46,900 bases of DNA from positions 1 through 46,900 of IMG/VR virus record IMGVR_UViG_3300034093_000785; one strand, given 5' to 3'. How positions within the stretch are numbered: position 1 is the stretch's first letter; each line of letters opens with the position of its first letter. Origin of the DNA: a virus. Positions 8,890 through 21,563 of the stretch are shown here, one piece after another. The notes beneath the pieces were generated by a model. That model saw only the letters and a program-made list of their open reading frames with translations, ran no database searches and was not told the origin of the DNA. A program made the position numbers and the translations under genes.

Positions 8890-9516
8890 TCAAAAGAGAG
8901 TTTGTTGAAGAAAACTTTTATTAAAATCTCCCACGCTCTTTTTTTTACGTTTCAACTTATTACTTATTTCATAAAGCCATATTATTTTCGGTAATCCAGT
9001 TTGCACTATCGCATCTCCTGTTTTAACCGCTTCTCTCAATTCATAAGAGTATGGTCTTTCAATACTCAAACTTCTTGGGTGGTATGTTTTGCCTTTCCAT
9101 TCTACATATTTTGTCGGTGTTGTTTCTCCTATGTTTTTAAAGTTTGCAGCCTTATAAATCGTTCCGCTATGCCCTACTGTTTTATCTGAATAACTCAAAA
9201 CATAGTTGTAATCCGTATTACTTGCACACCACTTTATAATTTGAGATAAAAACCAACTTTCACTATTGCAAGGTGCATCGTCTAAACAAGCCATTCTTCT
9301 AATATCAATGCAGTTTTTATACTTCTTTTCGTGTCTTGGTTTTCCCATTACGCTACCACCTACAAGTAATCCATCTATAAACATTGCAAAACATACGCTT
9401 ATTCCTCCACCCATTGCACCTTTTTTATAATGGTATTCCTCAAAAATATGGCGAATATCTGCAAACCTACAAGTTCGTATTTCGCATTTTGTTTTATCTA
9501 ATTTTCCCTCGCTCAT
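8890..9516 (-). CDS. mom: Mom-like DNA adenine modification protein
   Basis: A 208-residue protein. The stretch YSDKTVGHSGTIYKAANF (109-126), with the preceding CIDIRRMACLDD and the hydrophobic strand FAMFIDGLLVGGSVMG, matches the Mom family of phage Mu. Mom is a GNAT-fold enzyme that converts adenines in phage DNA to a carbamoylmethyl form, protecting it from restriction. The length fits (Mu Mom is about 240). The gene lies inside a repeat-bounded insert, 300 bp from the nearest operon neighbour on the 5' side, and has no Com-like partner nearby. Family confidence is high; activity on this phage's DNA is inferred. Confidence 0.85.
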   Translation of the reverse strand: MSEGKLDKTKCEIRTCRFADIRHIFEEYHYKKGAMGGGISVCFAMFIDGLLVGGSVMGKPRHEKKYKNCIDIRRMACLDDAPCNSESWFLSQIIKWCASNTDYNYVLSYSDKTVGHSGTIYKAANFKNIGETTPTKYVEWKGKTYHPRSLSIERPYSYELREAVKTGDAIVQTGLPKIIWLYEISNKLKRKKKSVGDFNKSFLQQTLF

Positions 9517-11961: not shown

Positions 11962-12480
11962 TTAAACATTCTTTTCTAGTACCAACAACTCCTTGAGTAA
12001 CTTCTGCTTTTGTATCCTTACCTTCTCCTTCTCCTTGTCCACCTCTCCGGATAGTAAGTTAACAAGCTCTGTCTTCATCTCCCTCATCACGTCCTCCAGA
12101 GACATCAACTTCACCAAGTACTGACGTAGGTCGTAAGTAATGTAGTCAGAACCCGACTTCATCCCAAGAAATCTGCTGATGATGTTGTCATACACCTGAC
12201 GATAACTCTTCTCTGAGTTGTACAACGTAACGTGTGCATTGTTGCATAGGTAAGTAACCGCACTATGGTCACGCTTGATGATCTTCCCGATATCCACCAA
12301 CCTCATCCCGATCAGGTCTTTTAGTAGTACTGCCATTAGCGTTCTTGCTTTGACGTATACAGCTTGTTTATTTCTTTTGGGGATATCATCCCACTCTATC
12401 CTTCTGGAGTCAATAATGAAGGCATTAATTTCTTCTACAACAATCTTTTTTAGTTGCTCTACTTCTTTTTCTGTGTTCAT
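11962..12480 (-). CDS. Stand-alone DnaA domain IV-like DNA-binding protein
   Basis: A 172-residue protein. Residues 43-104 match the DNA-binding domain IV of DnaA: KARTLMAVLLKDLIGMRLVDIGKIIKRDHSAVTYL, with the signature RDHSAV (70-75) standing for the DnaA RDHTTV motif that contacts DnaA boxes. There is no AAA+ ATPase domain. A predicted coiled coil fills the C-terminus (LMSLEDVMREMKTELVN...EKEKVRIQKQKLLKELL). It probably recognises DnaA-like boxes such as the two TTATCAACAGG copies at 17.1 kb, as a replication factor or a regulator competing with host DnaA. A CACTAGTAAT-type motif lies 34-47 bp upstream of its ATG. Confidence 0.8.
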   Translation of the reverse strand: MNTEKEVEQLKKIVVEEINAFIIDSRRIEWDDIPKRNKQAVYVKARTLMAVLLKDLIGMRLVDIGKIIKRDHSAVTYLCNNAHVTLYNSEKSYRQVYDNIISRFLGMKSGSDYITYDLRQYLVKLMSLEDVMREMKTELVNLLSGEVDKEKEKVRIQKQKLLKELLVLEKNV

Positions 12481-15938: not shown

Positions 15939-16115
15939 TTATTTTATTTGATTGTCTATTATTTGAATTGAAAGACCTATTAAGGTCAGGAACAGGGAGA
16001 AACCTATCAGCATCTCGTCAAAGATTGTCTTATCTGACAACATTAGTAAACCCGTAATTAGTAAGGTCATTGCTAGTCCTAACAATACCTTCATTGCTTT
16101 GTCTGAATTGCTCAT
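15939..16115 (-). CDS. Small two-helix membrane protein, 58 aa
   Basis: A 58-codon frame MSNSDKAMKVLLGLAMTLLI... with hydrophobic segments at about 8-26 and 35-52 separated by SDKTIFDE. It fits between adjacent genes without overlap. Likely an inner-membrane protein; a holin-like shape is possible (two short helices, small size), but charge and context do not decide this. Confidence 0.65.
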   Translation of the reverse strand: MSNSDKAMKVLLGLAMTLLITGLLMLSDKTIFDEMLIGFSLFLTLIGLSIQIIDNQIK

Positions 16116-16679: not shown

Positions 16680-16845
16680 ACTATTTGTTTTTAAGTTGTT
16701 AGCGAAACGCCCCTATCGAAAGGTAGAATCTGATATAATCTCATCAGCGTTTCAGTTAGTAATCCAATATTTCAAAGAACGTTTGTCTCTCGATTGATTG
16801 ACACTGCAAAGATAGGATAAGGTCATATCTCCAATCCAAATTTAT

Positions 16846-16857
16846 TTTGTTAACAAA
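16846..16857. promoter_or_regulatory. TTTGTTAACAAA palindrome
   Basis: A perfect 12-bp palindrome in the leader of the early operon. Its right part is also half of a 9-bp inverted repeat, ACAAACGTT (16,853-16,861) with AACGTTTGT (16,778-16,786). It looks like an operator for a dimeric protein, such as the small HTH protein at 10,758; the partner is a guess. Confidence 0.45.
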
Positions 16858-16913
16858 CGTTAAAATCGCTGTAACTCATTGATAATCAATAAGAAAAAAG
16901 TGCAAATATTTTT

Positions 16914-16967
16914 AGGGTTTTTGAGTAATTAGGGTTTGTATAGGGTAAAAGTAGGGTTGAGAGGGTT
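16914..16967. repeat. AGGGTW direct repeats
   Basis: AGGGTT or AGGGTA starts at 16,914, 16,931, 16,942, 16,953 and 16,962, with spacings of 17, 11, 11 and 9 bp. A purine-rich, roughly one-turn repeat just before the first 18-bp dyad. Confidence 0.6.
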
Positions 16968-16975
16968 ACTGCCTT

Positions 16976-17365
16976 GTTGTACTATATAACAACCTGTGAG
17001 AATACAATCGCTTTACGTGGTAAAGGAAACAGGCGCACGCGCGCCCATACACGCGTATAGGGGTTTTTCCGCTACATTTCACACAGGTTTATCAGAAGTT
17101 ATCAACAGGGTTATCAACAGGTATTTTGTTGCACTTTAATACAACAGAACAGGACAGGATACCAATCTGTTAGGTTGTACAATAATACAACAAATCTGTT
17201 GACATATAATACAACATGTCATGCGTCATCATGCATCATGCAGGTTGTCATACAATACAACATACACATGTACTACATATGTATTACACTTGTATTATAA
17301 TACAACTTGGTCATTGGTTTATAGTACAACATGTAATCATCGGAAAAGTTGCACTAAAACACAAC
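16976..17365. repeat. Eight 18-bp dyad repeats (iteron array)
   Basis: The 18-mers start at 16,976 (GTTGTACTATATAACAAC), 17,128 (GTTGCACTTTAATACAAC), 17,174 (GTTGTACAATAATACAAC), 17,198 (GTTGACATATAATACAAC), 17,244 (GTTGTCATACAATACAAC), 17,289 (CTTGTATTATAATACAAC), 17,313 (ATTGGTTTATAGTACAAC) and 17,348 (GTTGCACTAAAACACAAC). Six of eight keep GTTG at the left and all keep CAAC at the right. Start spacings after the first are 46, 24, 46, 45, 24 and 35 bp, near multiples of 11.5 bp. The copy at 17,289 contains a perfect palindrome TTGTATTATAATACAA and overlaps a CACTTGTAT motif. Confidence 0.85.
17089..17121 (+). promoter_or_regulatory. DnaA-box-like direct repeats
   Basis: TTATCAACAGG occurs at 17,099-17,109 and 17,111-17,121, 12 bp apart, preceded by a weaker TTATCAGAAG (17,089). 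TTATCAACA is one base from the DnaA box TTATCCACA. The phage encodes two DnaA domain IV-like proteins, and host DnaA is also a candidate binder. Confidence 0.55.
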
Positions 17366-17500
17366 CCACCCAGTCCGCAAAAAGGCGTTTCGGTCACGCA
17401 CGCATGCACGCACATGTATATGTTACCCCCTCCTAATTGTGTTCAGCTATTTTCGTAAAACCCCTACTATGTTCAGCCTTTTTCCCATTTATAGGGTATC

Positions 17501-17526
17501 AAAAAACCCCTACCGATGTGGAGGGG
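17501..17526 (-). terminator. Intrinsic terminator, minus strand
   Basis: On the minus strand CCCCT (plus 17,522-17,526) pairs with AGGGG (17,507-17,511), with a further CC/GG inside, followed directly by six T (17,501-17,506). It ends transcription of the initiator, helicase and following genes before the origin-like region. Confidence 0.75.
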
Positions 17527-17609
17527 CTTCGAGATTGTTAGGTCTGATATCTCATACGCTATGTATGGAATAGCTTTTTATGCATGATATCTCGTACAAT
17601 TTAGGCTTA

Positions 17610-18137
17610 TTATTTCCTTTTATTAAGATCTCTTTGTAGGTGGTTTATCTCCTTGATGAAGAAGTCTACCACTTCTGACATACCTTCAGCCTGGAGTTTA
17701 TCTACGATAGCTTTGGCTTTGTCTGAGTACTTGCGATTGGTTTCAATGAAGCTCTTGGTCTTGCTAATGTGGTACTTGATAGATGACTTATCCATTTGAA
17801 TGAAGTGTGCTATACTATCGAAGTTATTGGACATCACCCCTTCAACGAGGAACATCCACATACGCTTAGCTTCAACGTGGTTTCCGGATCTATTGCCAGA
17901 GGTTACGTCATCAACTTGTACGGCAAACTCTTCACAGCAGGCTTGTAGTATCTTGACCATGAAGGCATTGGGATTATCCCTCCACTTTTTGACTATTGGG
18001 TACTTGCTCATGTAGTCAAAAGCTTCTAGGGACAGAGGATGATCCATCCCTAGAGTTTCTATGAGTTGAGATACGAACGCAGCCTTTTGGTATGGCTTAA
18101 CGTATTCTACTAGTGCTTCTATATTAGCGTGTTTCAT
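17610..18137 (-). CDS. DnaA domain IV-like protein, 175 aa
   Basis: The ATG at 18,137 (MKHANIEALVEYVKPYQKAA) is preferred, as the longer frame overlaps the PP-loop gene. Residues 64-145 follow the DnaA domain IV layout: a short helix with CEEFAVQVDDVTSGNR, then HVEAKRMWMFLVEGVMSNNFDSIAHFIQ and MDKSSIKYHISK, where DKSSI takes the place of DHTTV. This motif is more diverged than in the 172-residue protein at 11,962. It is the last gene before the terminator and the origin-like region. A role in initiation, or in modulating host DnaA, is inferred; the fold match is moderate. Confidence 0.65.
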   Translation of the reverse strand: MKHANIEALVEYVKPYQKAAFVSQLIETLGMDHPLSLEAFDYMSKYPIVKKWRDNPNAFMVKILQACCEEFAVQVDDVTSGNRSGNHVEAKRMWMFLVEGVMSNNFDSIAHFIQMDKSSIKYHISKTKSFIETNRKYSDKAKAIVDKLQAEGMSEVVDFFIKEINHLQRDLNKRK

Positions 18138-18993: not shown

Positions 18994-20730
18994 TTAAAAT
19001 GGCATTTCTTCTTGATTTATTTTTTGTTCTAGGTAGTTACCGGATTGTTTGTTAGAGGGTTGGTAGAACCTTCCAGAGTCTATATCGTATTGTAAAGCTA
19101 CACTACCTTGTCTACCCCAGTGCTTGAATTTAACCTTTTGGACAAACACTTCAGGGGATGATGTTCCGTCCTCAAAGAAATGTCTGTACACTGATATACC
19201 GTTGTGTGACTTGTTAAAGAAGTGAGCAGATCCAGCCATGTCGTATAGCGTGGGGACTAGGTATGGTCCGTTGCCTTTATCTCTTTGCATTTTTGTCGGG
19301 TGAGCGACCACAAAGATATGTACTCCAAACTTATGAGCAAAATTTATTATCAGGTCGAGTTGCTTACCGATGTATGTGGTCTCGTTGGATGCGAAGTCGT
19401 GGTCTAACTTATTCCAAGCATCTATGATCAGTCCGTTTATTCCGTATCGTTTAACAAGTTGTGTAGCGTGTTCGATAATACTCTCAACGCTGTTATCTTC
19501 CTTGGGAACGATGTAGAAGAAGTTGTCACGGTAGTAGTCCATGGCTTGTATCACCTTATGGTCAGCCATGTCGTTGAATCTCTCCCCTACGAGTTTGGAA
19601 GCTATCTTAGAGAAGTGGAGTTGAAGTGGGTAGTTCTCAGGGGAGAATATACCAAACCTCCATCCGTGCTTGATCGATAGGTCCACCATGATTTGGTCAA
19701 GGAACTCTGACTTTCCATGGTTTGGGATACCGGTGACAACGGTTAGATATCCTGGATCAAAGGTAAGTAGCTCGTTAAAACAGGGGATTGATATGTCGCA
19801 TCCTGGTTTAAGTCCCTCACGCTTTAGTCTCCAGATATCATCTGATAGGTTGTCTACGGTTAGTACTCCGTCAATAGGGTATGGCTCGGATTGGGTTATT
19901 GTGTCTTGTAGGGCTAGAGGCTCCTTCATTAACAGCTCGTTTGCATCCTTGCATCCCAAGAAGCTAACCTTGCGACATCTGTACTTACCTAAGCGTCTAG
20001 CAAGCTCCTCCTGTAATACACGTCCTGGCTCATCGTCATCGGTGGCTATGAAGATTGTTTTTACATCCTCAAACAGGTCTATGCAGTTGTCGAGGTAGAC
20101 TAGCTTCTGCTGTGCGGACTTTGTTGCTCCGTTTGGTACAGAGATAACTGAGTCATATCCAGCCTCGATGTAAGACAGTGCATCAACTTCACCCTCCGTG
20201 ATGATCACATAGTCCATGTCCTTCATTGAGTCCAAGTTGTAGAATATAAGCTCAGCATCCTTGTACAGCTTGAAAGACTTCTTTGGTCCACGGTACTTGA
20301 CGTTGATTAGTTCCGTGTCACGGAAGTAGTTGAACTCGATACACTTAGCCTCCTTCTCAAGTTGTGGGAAGAAAGTACGTCCTTGTGTAATCTTGACTTG
20401 GTTGACCACTCGCTGCGACAAACCTCTGTCGGTAAAGAACTTGAGTACGTCATCTTCTAAGTCTGTGATGTTTCTCCACTCAGGGCGAGAGTATATGGGC
20501 TTCTGTAACTCGTTAGGCTTGTATGCCCCCTCTAGTTTCTTCCCGAACTTAGCTCCGCAGTGTAGGCAGTTTCCGATTCCTTTTTGTCCATCCCAACTAA
20601 AAGACTTAGCTGTCTTCTTCTTCCTATCCCCGGAACACTCTGGGCATGGCATAGCATTTTCCCCTGTTGCGTTCTTGAGGTCTATGATGAACTCACGCTT
20701 TGTTTGTAGGTTGATTATTCTTTCGATCAT
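18994..20730 (-). CDS. Bifunctional primase-helicase, T7 gp4-like
   Basis: A 578-residue protein with three parts. Zinc ribbon: C29, C32, C55, C58 (CPECSG...CLHCG). TOPRIM primase core: VIITEGEVDALS (E179, E181) and IATDDDEPGR (D231-D233). RecA-like DnaB helicase domain: Walker A TGIPNHGKS (333-341), Walker B GLIIDAW (433-439), and HIFVVAHPTK (471-480). This is the order and length of T7 gp4 (566 residues). The C-terminus, KINQEEMPF, is acidic with a final Phe, as in T7 gp4, where that tail contacts the DNA polymerase. It lies 50 bp after the initiator gene. Confidence 0.95.
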   Translation of the reverse strand: MIERIINLQTKREFIIDLKNATGENAMPCPECSGDRKKKTAKSFSWDGQKGIGNCLHCGAKFGKKLEGAYKPNELQKPIYSRPEWRNITDLEDDVLKFFTDRGLSQRVVNQVKITQGRTFFPQLEKEAKCIEFNYFRDTELINVKYRGPKKSFKLYKDAELIFYNLDSMKDMDYVIITEGEVDALSYIEAGYDSVISVPNGATKSAQQKLVYLDNCIDLFEDVKTIFIATDDDEPGRVLQEELARRLGKYRCRKVSFLGCKDANELLMKEPLALQDTITQSEPYPIDGVLTVDNLSDDIWRLKREGLKPGCDISIPCFNELLTFDPGYLTVVTGIPNHGKSEFLDQIMVDLSIKHGWRFGIFSPENYPLQLHFSKIASKLVGERFNDMADHKVIQAMDYYRDNFFYIVPKEDNSVESIIEHATQLVKRYGINGLIIDAWNKLDHDFASNETTYIGKQLDLIINFAHKFGVHIFVVAHPTKMQRDKGNGPYLVPTLYDMAGSAHFFNKSHNGISVYRHFFEDGTSSPEVFVQKVKFKHWGRQGSVALQYDIDSGRFYQPSNKQSGNYLEQKINQEEMPF

Positions 20731-20780: not shown

Positions 20781-21563
20781 TTACGACTTGAACCCGATTG
20801 GGGTAGATTTATATACCCAAGATCCGTTAACAACCTCTCGCTTCATTAGAGGGTTATTATGGAACTCTTTTACATAGCCTGGTATGTTGATATCATTTTC
20901 ATTAGTTATTTGAAATTTGACCCCTTTCTGTTCGTTTTTGAACCATGATGCGATCATTTTCTGTTTCCAATTTAACACTTGGTCCCCTTTTGCGTCTTTC
21001 CAGTCGGCAACGGAGTAGTATTCGTAAGCCTGAGAACCAATGCTCGGATCAAAACCTTTTTCAGCTGCGTAACTCATCATCTCCTCTTTCGATGGAGCGA
21101 TAAATTCTTTTCTTTTTCTTTTTGTATTTTCTTTTTCTAAACTACTAGATATATTACTAGATTCTATATATATATTTTCATTTTCCATATGTATTACACT
21201 AGTATCTCCACTAGTATATTCAAGTGTATTACTAGTGTTATTCACTTGTATTTCACTAGTATTCTTTTCCCATCTTTTTTTGATGTTACCTCTTCTGGAG
21301 TCTGAAAACTTCTTTCTCTTCTCAATTTCAGCTTCTAGCCTTACATTGTAGTAGTTTCCTTCTTCATCTTTTTGGAATTTATCGAGGACGTTGCGGTCTA
21401 AATCACCGCAAATATGCATGATTTTTTCCTCAGTTAATCTCCCATGTTGATGTTGAGCGCAGATAAGTCTGATGTACTTTCCTACTTGTGCGTGTGTAAG
21501 GAATGCTGTCCCTACATAGAAGTCCTGTGTGTAGAACAGGAAGGCTGGATCTTTTTGTGCCAT
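20781..21563 (-). CDS. Replication initiator, lambda O-like organisation
   Basis: A 260-residue protein. Residues 1-95 match the N-terminal domain of phage replisome organisers (DUF1376/DUF4373 type): KDPAFLFYTQDFYVGTAFLTH and VGKYIRLICAQHQHGRL. Residues 101-145 form a Ser/Thr/Asn-rich linker whose codons carry the CACTWGTAT array. The C-terminal part (150-215: PSKEEMMSYAAEKG...AYEYYSVADWKDAKGDQVLNWKQKM) is the usual DnaT-like region of these initiators. As with lambda O, the origin repeats probably lie in the gene and are bound by the N-terminal domain, while the C-terminus loads the helicase encoded next. A Bacteroidota-type promoter with one motif between its boxes precedes it. Confidence 0.85.
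   Translation of the reverse strand: MAQKDPAFLFYTQDFYVGTAFLTHAQVGKYIRLICAQHQHGRLTEEKIMHICGDLDRNVLDKFQKDEEGNYYNVRLEAEIEKRKKFSDSRRGNIKKRWEKNTSEIQVNNTSNTLEYTSGDTSVIHMENENIYIESSNISSSLEKENTKRKRKEFIAPSKEEMMSYAAEKGFDPSIGSQAYEYYSVADWKDAKGDQVLNWKQKMIASWFKNEQKGVKFQITNENDINIPGYVKEFHNNPLMKREVVNGSWVYKSTPIGFKS
21141..21262. repeat. CACTWGTAT iteron array with AT-rich flank
   Basis: Copies: CACTAGTAT 21,197-21,205 and 21,209-21,217; inverted ATACACTTG (plus CAAGTGTAT) 21,221-21,229; inverted AACACTAGT (plus ACTAGTGTT) 21,231-21,239; CACTTGTAT 21,243-21,251; CACTAGTAT 21,254-21,262. Core starts are 10-13 bp apart, about one per helical turn. Two weaker ACTAGA sites lie at about 21,144 and 21,155. The AT-rich stretch TATATATATTTTCATTTTCC (21,163-21,186) would serve as the unwinding element. 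The array encodes initiator residues 101-124. Confidence 0.8.

Follow-up and report, generated by a model that had tools for sequence, protein, structure and literature searches.

A region at 16.8–17.4 kb of the window (the whole stretch of viral DNA analysed, 46,900 nucleotides recovered from environmental DNA) is probably a bidirectional replication origin, or the part of one that fixes where the forks diverge, in which repeated 18-bp dyads act as iterons and are likely bound by P0001, a DnaA-related protein encoded alongside. This reading is built on the dyad array, its direction, spacing quantum and conservation, together with a change in GC skew, the domain IV fold of P0001 and the gene neighbourhood. 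The DNA between the P0001 gene and the leftward operon (16680–17609), which holds all eight dyads, is referred to here as the slot.

The eight 18-bp dyads occupy 16976–17365 (Table 1), with seven of them clustered in 238 bp (17128–17365) at start spacings of 46, 24, 46, 45, 24 and 35 bp; the sites, coordinates and spacings listed in the first-pass annotation all proved exact on re-checking. Allowing up to three mismatches to the dyad consensus, 13 strand-matches were found in the window against 0.88 expected, a count that none of 100 dinucleotide shuffles reached. A weight matrix was also trained solely on the dyads of relatives and then run over the 46.9-kb window. Seven of the eight dyads scored 19.6–25.4 bits and took the top seven places, the highest-scoring place outside the slot reaching 13.6 bits. 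The remaining dyad, at 17313 (ATTGGTTTATAGTACAAC), scored 15.1 bits on the + strand and is called degenerate because on the − strand, the one on which the array is read, it scored just 9.3 bits. At 16024–16041, inside the genes that open the leftward operon, there is a ninth but weak dyad (13.4 bits). Open reading frames do cross the array, and coding repeats were considered as an explanation and rejected: the gap between two homologous neighbouring dyads is 46 bp in the window versus 24 bp in the relative G005, and because of this 22-bp difference no reading frame is kept.

Table 1. Features of the slot and of the genes discussed, in window coordinates.
Feature	Position	Strand	Basis or remark
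P0004, second DnaA domain IV-type protein	11962–12480	−	Domain scan
TATCTTTG, Bacteroidota-type −7 promoter element (TAnnTTTG) of the leftward operon	16807–16814	−	Promoter-like
AT-rich tract, 70–77% A+T (60-bp windows)	16833–16952		Adjoins isolated dyad
Isolated dyad GTTGTTATATAGTACAAC	16976–16993	−	Most conserved stretch of the slot; retained in array-less relatives too
Two TTATCAACA words, DnaA-box-like	17099–17119	+	Between isolated dyad and array; number not conserved
Array dyad 1 GTTGTATTAAAGTGCAAC	17128–17145	−	Consensus and matrix
Array dyad 2 GTTGTATTATTGTACAAC	17174–17191	−	Consensus and matrix
Array dyad 3 GTTGTATTATATGTCAAC	17198–17215	−	Consensus and matrix
Array dyad 4 GTTGTATTGTATGACAAC	17244–17261	−	Consensus and matrix
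TAATACATATG element	17276–17286	−	Within 45-bp gap of array; same word in initiator-gene iterons
Array dyad 5 GTTGTATTATAATACAAG	17289–17306	−	Consensus and matrix
Array dyad 6, degenerate, GTTGTACTATAAACCAAT	17313–17330	−	Consensus and matrix
Array dyad 7 GTTGTGTTTTAGTGCAAC	17348–17365	−	Consensus and matrix
P0001, 175 aa, ATG start, DnaA domain IV without AAA+ domain, proposed dyad reader	17610–18137	−	Pfam and structure model
P0002, primase-helicase (Toprim and DnaB-like)	18994–20730	−	Domain/PHROG matches
P0003, DUF1376/primosomal-type, likely initiator or helicase loader	20781–21563	−	Domain/PHROG matches
Iterons inside the P0003 gene (ACTAGT and AATACANNTG words), then A-rich tract	21186–21261	−	Second origin-like element

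All dyads share one orientation. Read on the − strand, the direction of the neighbouring genes, every array dyad opens with an invariant GTTGT and closes with a looser ACAAC; since the invariant half comes first each time, the sites form a direct-repeat series in which each unit has its own dyad symmetry. Adjacent spacings across the relatives cluster at 23–24, 32, 34–36, 45–47 and 58–59 bp. For 25 such spacings from five phages, which are not independent because some sites are shared by descent, the best period was 11.4 bp (R = 0.86, a value that 0 of 5000 random sets reached), so that the ~11.5-bp quantum first noticed in the window holds across relatives. The window and its most divergent relative by themselves gave a period of 11.1 bp (R = 0.94). 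An alternative fit, in which the B-DNA period of 10.5 is combined with a fixed shift of 3 bp, gave R = 0.77. Between the window and G005, one inner dyad is displaced by 12 bp, with the outer two constant at 59 bp apart.

The relatives, which are few and some of them only fragments, have helicase-primase identities to the window of 99, 79–86, 61–68 and 49%. At the same position and in the same orientation, G003, G004 and G005 (79–86%) carry 8, 8 and 9 dyads, and in each a TACATATGTA word again lies within a 45–47-bp gap. This agreement in place, direction and spacing quantum supports the earlier proposal of an ordered, gene-free site for one type of protein. The AT-rich tract also recurs at the equivalent place in relatives. 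G006 has three dyads and G001 a single dyad of this type (motif A). In G001 the proteins P0001, P0002 and P0003 are 98–99% identical to those of the window, yet the whole slot has been exchanged and the array lost; its place is taken by a GIY-YIG-like gene, two TATTTAGA..TCTAAATA dyads and parS-like palindromes. G010 and G011 contain no motif A, only other dyads of the TATTTAGA..TCTAAATA type, and in the 63% group motif A was absent and a skew change at the slot was not clear. The first-pass annotation had named absence of the repeats from close relatives as evidence against an ordered site. Such absence was found in part, in that G001 has an exchanged slot with one dyad, and G003–G005 retain the array. 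Because G001 keeps one dyad with nearly the same proteins, the full array is not indispensable for P0001–P0003, and instead of being the essential core it may enhance one made up of a single dyad.

Further features of the exchanged slots can be recorded here. The GIY-YIG-like gene inserted in the G001 slot (L006:6550–7150) has a C-terminal HTH. The dyad that replaces motif A in G001, G010 and G011 is ATTTAGANNNNNTCTAAAT, its copies lying 93 bp apart in the last two. Pairs of the parS-like TGTTTCACGTGAAACA occur in the slots of G001 (L006:7380–8110), G006, G010 and G011; these phages carry no ParB_N gene and may use the ParB of the host.

Third-position GC (GC3) skew flips sign in or near the slot in the window, G005 and G003, and not at the divergent promoter, which is 4 kb away. 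When GC3 skew was modelled, the coefficient for side of the slot was about 0.35–0.40, against about 0.01 for gene strand. Placing the change at the slot instead of at the divergent promoter gained 25.4 log units in the window, 32.0 in G005 and 22.6 in G003, values not corrected for a 1.9–2.3-fold overdispersion. The argument draws on four module genes and their homologues, and in the window these four had a coding skew of −0.14, versus +0.20 for genes of that strand left of the slot (Fisher p = 4e-13). The changepoint is only coarsely located, since its bootstrap ranges (5–95%) were wide: 15.2–17.5 kb in the window, 13.6–17.1 kb in G005 (slot at 16.6, best point 2 kb off the slot) and 4.9–22.8 kb in G003. 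In G004 the change was weak, with the best changepoint 4 kb from the slot, and none was visible in G001 and G006, where the contigs end soon and few genes lie beyond the slot. In the window, G005 and G003, the sign change, coarse as it is and weak in G004, was independent of gene direction, as at a bidirectional origin.

From the slot, the gene order is P0001, a PAPS reductase-like gene, P0002 and P0003. P0003 gave a DUF1376 match below cut-off and a primosomal PHROG match, and its structure model was poor (pLDDT 47). Among the functions that the first-pass annotation offered for the array, an origin is the best supported, because the skew flips near the slot in three genomes and a helicase-primase gene and a DnaA-domain gene adjoin it. 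Packaging found no support, the terminase gene lying ~9 kb off. The nearest primases in named phages were mostly those of Bacteroidota phages, and Rfam gave zero matches in the window or the relatives.

A different placement of the origin has to be weighed, in which the iteron cluster in the P0003 gene, in the style of lambda O or RepA_N, is the origin and the dyad slot, with P0001 as its reader, serves as an accessory site for replication enhancement or copy control. All six array-type phages (window, G001, G003–G006) have the ACTAGT and AATACANNTG iterons, in varying copy number and followed by the A-rich tract, where the P0003 gene encodes the linker of its product; G001 retains them though its array is lost, and the lambda origin is itself situated within gene O (PMC5043065). 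In the window, G005 and G003, however, the GC3 skew flips at or near the slot rather than at the module's P0003 end, and we regard this placement as unlikely.

The proteins scanned in the window include RecT, an exonuclease, Mom, a terminase and a portal (the Mom-like DNA modification gene is at 8890–9516). No integrase match was obtained among them, so that the phage is likely lytic. This gene content bears on the idea, also raised in the first-pass annotation, that the slot is a partition site, a centromere for a ParB-, ParR- or KorB-like protein. Although the dyads are ordered and lie in non-coding DNA, and parS-like TGTTTCACGTGAAACA pairs occur in four of the relatives' slots, a scan for ParB_N and AAA_31 (ParA) genes found none in the window or the relatives, the window contains no good parS match, and an integrase is likewise missing from the proteins scanned. 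Partition is accordingly very improbable.

The slot could also be an operator region, where a phage regulator bound to the dyads controls the leftward operon from the promoter-like element at ~16.8 kb. The TATCTTTG element lies ~160 bp past the isolated dyad, with the AT-rich tract between them, and the occurrence of TATTTAGA..TCTAAATA and parS-like dyads in the relatives' slots is reminiscent of exchanged repressor–operator pairs. Seven dyads 300–550 bp upstream of one promoter and zero at others would be unusual for a regulon, however, and the regulatory function suggested earlier, although it gains this promoter-like element, leaves the skew change unexplained. We consider an operator to be a rather improbable explanation of the slot.

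Returning to the origin, P0001 is most likely the protein that reads the dyads, judging from its fold and the pattern of its conservation. It matched Bac_DnaA_C (PF08299) at 34.1 bits, above the curated cut-off of 31.5, and this was its sole Pfam domain above cut-off; towards the N terminus, ~50 aa are helical. The structure model (pLDDT 89.5) superimposed on DnaA domain IV in 3pvp (Z 14.0, rmsd 1.6, 95 residues) and 1j1v (Z 12.9). The AAA+ ATPase domain is absent, and P0001 is therefore not a full-length DnaA initiator. It also appears, in our reading of the alignment, to be without the arginine of the E. coli DnaA basic loop. Recognition helices are often kept within a protein family. That of P0001 (MDKSSIKYHISKT) is kept at 10 of 13 positions in G004 versus 61 of 162 for the rest of the protein (p = 0.007), and at 4 of 13 in L016, which has no motif; P0001 is favoured as the reader because its helix is kept in array phages and not in motif-less L016.

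The same origin might instead have P0003, P0004 or a host protein as the reader of its dyads, a less probable assignment but one of some weight, and one with which the origin itself is compatible. P0003 has in its favour that TAATACA is common to the dyad halves and its own iterons. Homologues of P0004 occur in the three relatives with a full array (in G001 and G006 the contig stops short of the P0004 position), but its recognition helix is kept at only 4 of 13 positions in G004, where the dyad motif is unchanged. Of the binders proposed at first, the DnaA-like protein beside the array would on helix conservation fit better than P0004. Against a host reader, the exact paired-dyad pattern yielded no array in host-type genomes.

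Exact patterns, which diverged arrays would escape, brought up no comparable array among 2.9 million viral contigs or among 84,980 species genomes, in keeping with a phage-encoded reader. The contigs with an exact paired-dyad match (L026–L040) contain no DnaA_C gene in those records, and rescanning eight of them together with six bacterial loci revealed no comparable array. In one of these contigs, L032 (29734 bases), words loosely resembling GTTGTATTA recur about every 51 bp along several kb, in what is probably repetitive coding sequence. Against a phage collection, the DNA showed no similarity, near or distant; in the same records P0001 had zero protein matches and P0004 one weak match. A P0004-based search confirmed no relatives, and a profile search with the P0001 alignment plus a flank-pattern search added none.

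The steps that we infer for the origin are reading of the dyads by P0001, half-site pairing, opening of the AT tract and helicase loading. Two copies of P0001 would sit on each dyad, one on either of its directly adjoining 9-bp half sites (GTTGTATTA / TAATACAAC), and the bound protein would form an ordered nucleoprotein row with a step of ~11.5 bp. Anchored at the isolated dyad, this row could strain or open the adjacent AT-rich tract, a candidate unwinding element, where P0003 and the helicase-primase P0002 would then be loaded.

In bacteria, the ability of DnaA to open origins is linked to its AAA+ domain. If our reading is true, the DNA-reading and AAA+ motor functions of DnaA would be separable, and the phages would offer a compact system for asking how an ATPase-less nucleoprotein row opens DNA and loads a helicase. 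Their natural variants, with a full array, three dyads or one dyad, form a ready deletion series, and the skew change independent of gene strand would mark an origin in an uncultured phage group. Rather tentatively, the slot may exemplify an arrangement in which a DnaA domain IV protein without ATPase has its own box, occupies it in head-to-head pairs on a ~11.5-bp ladder, and works from a slot exchangeable for other dyad types.

Among known systems, the closest protein family is PHROG 27829, a DnaA-like replication initiation protein of domain IV type, which P0004 matches weakly (E = 0.003); P0001 matched no PHROG. To our knowledge no target array has been described for this family, and a literature search found no description of a phage domain IV protein paired with an array. 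RepA_N-type origins (pSK41, pTZ2162 and the PLE satellite) consist of semi-palindromic direct repeats, those of PLE in a non-coding origin (PMC7145576). The dyad array is likewise made of semi-palindromic direct repeats, but the window proteins scanned include no RepA_N domain and the proposed reader is of DnaA type. With bacterial oriC the slot shares a proposed reader of domain IV type, ordered sites beside an AT-rich tract and a GC-skew change, and low-affinity E. coli DnaA boxes 2 bp apart give a step of ~11 bp (PMC6070618). It differs from oriC in its box, TAATACAAC, which has 6 of 9 letters in common with the DnaA box TTATNCACA, in the abutting inverted pairs and in a protein without an AAA+ domain; the array of TTATNCACA boxes by which a bacterial oriC is recognised is absent from the slot, which has two exact TTATCNACA words and zero TTATCCACA. 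The lambda origin contains short O iterons with internal dyad symmetry, bound by dimers, beside an A+T-rich region in the replication module (PMC5043065), and repeated dyad iterons beside an A+T-rich tract in a replication module are what the slot presents as well. Unlike that of lambda, the array is intergenic, separate from the element formed by the iterons inside the P0003 gene, and its 7 + 1 sites stand at quantised gaps beside a gene of the DnaA domain IV type.
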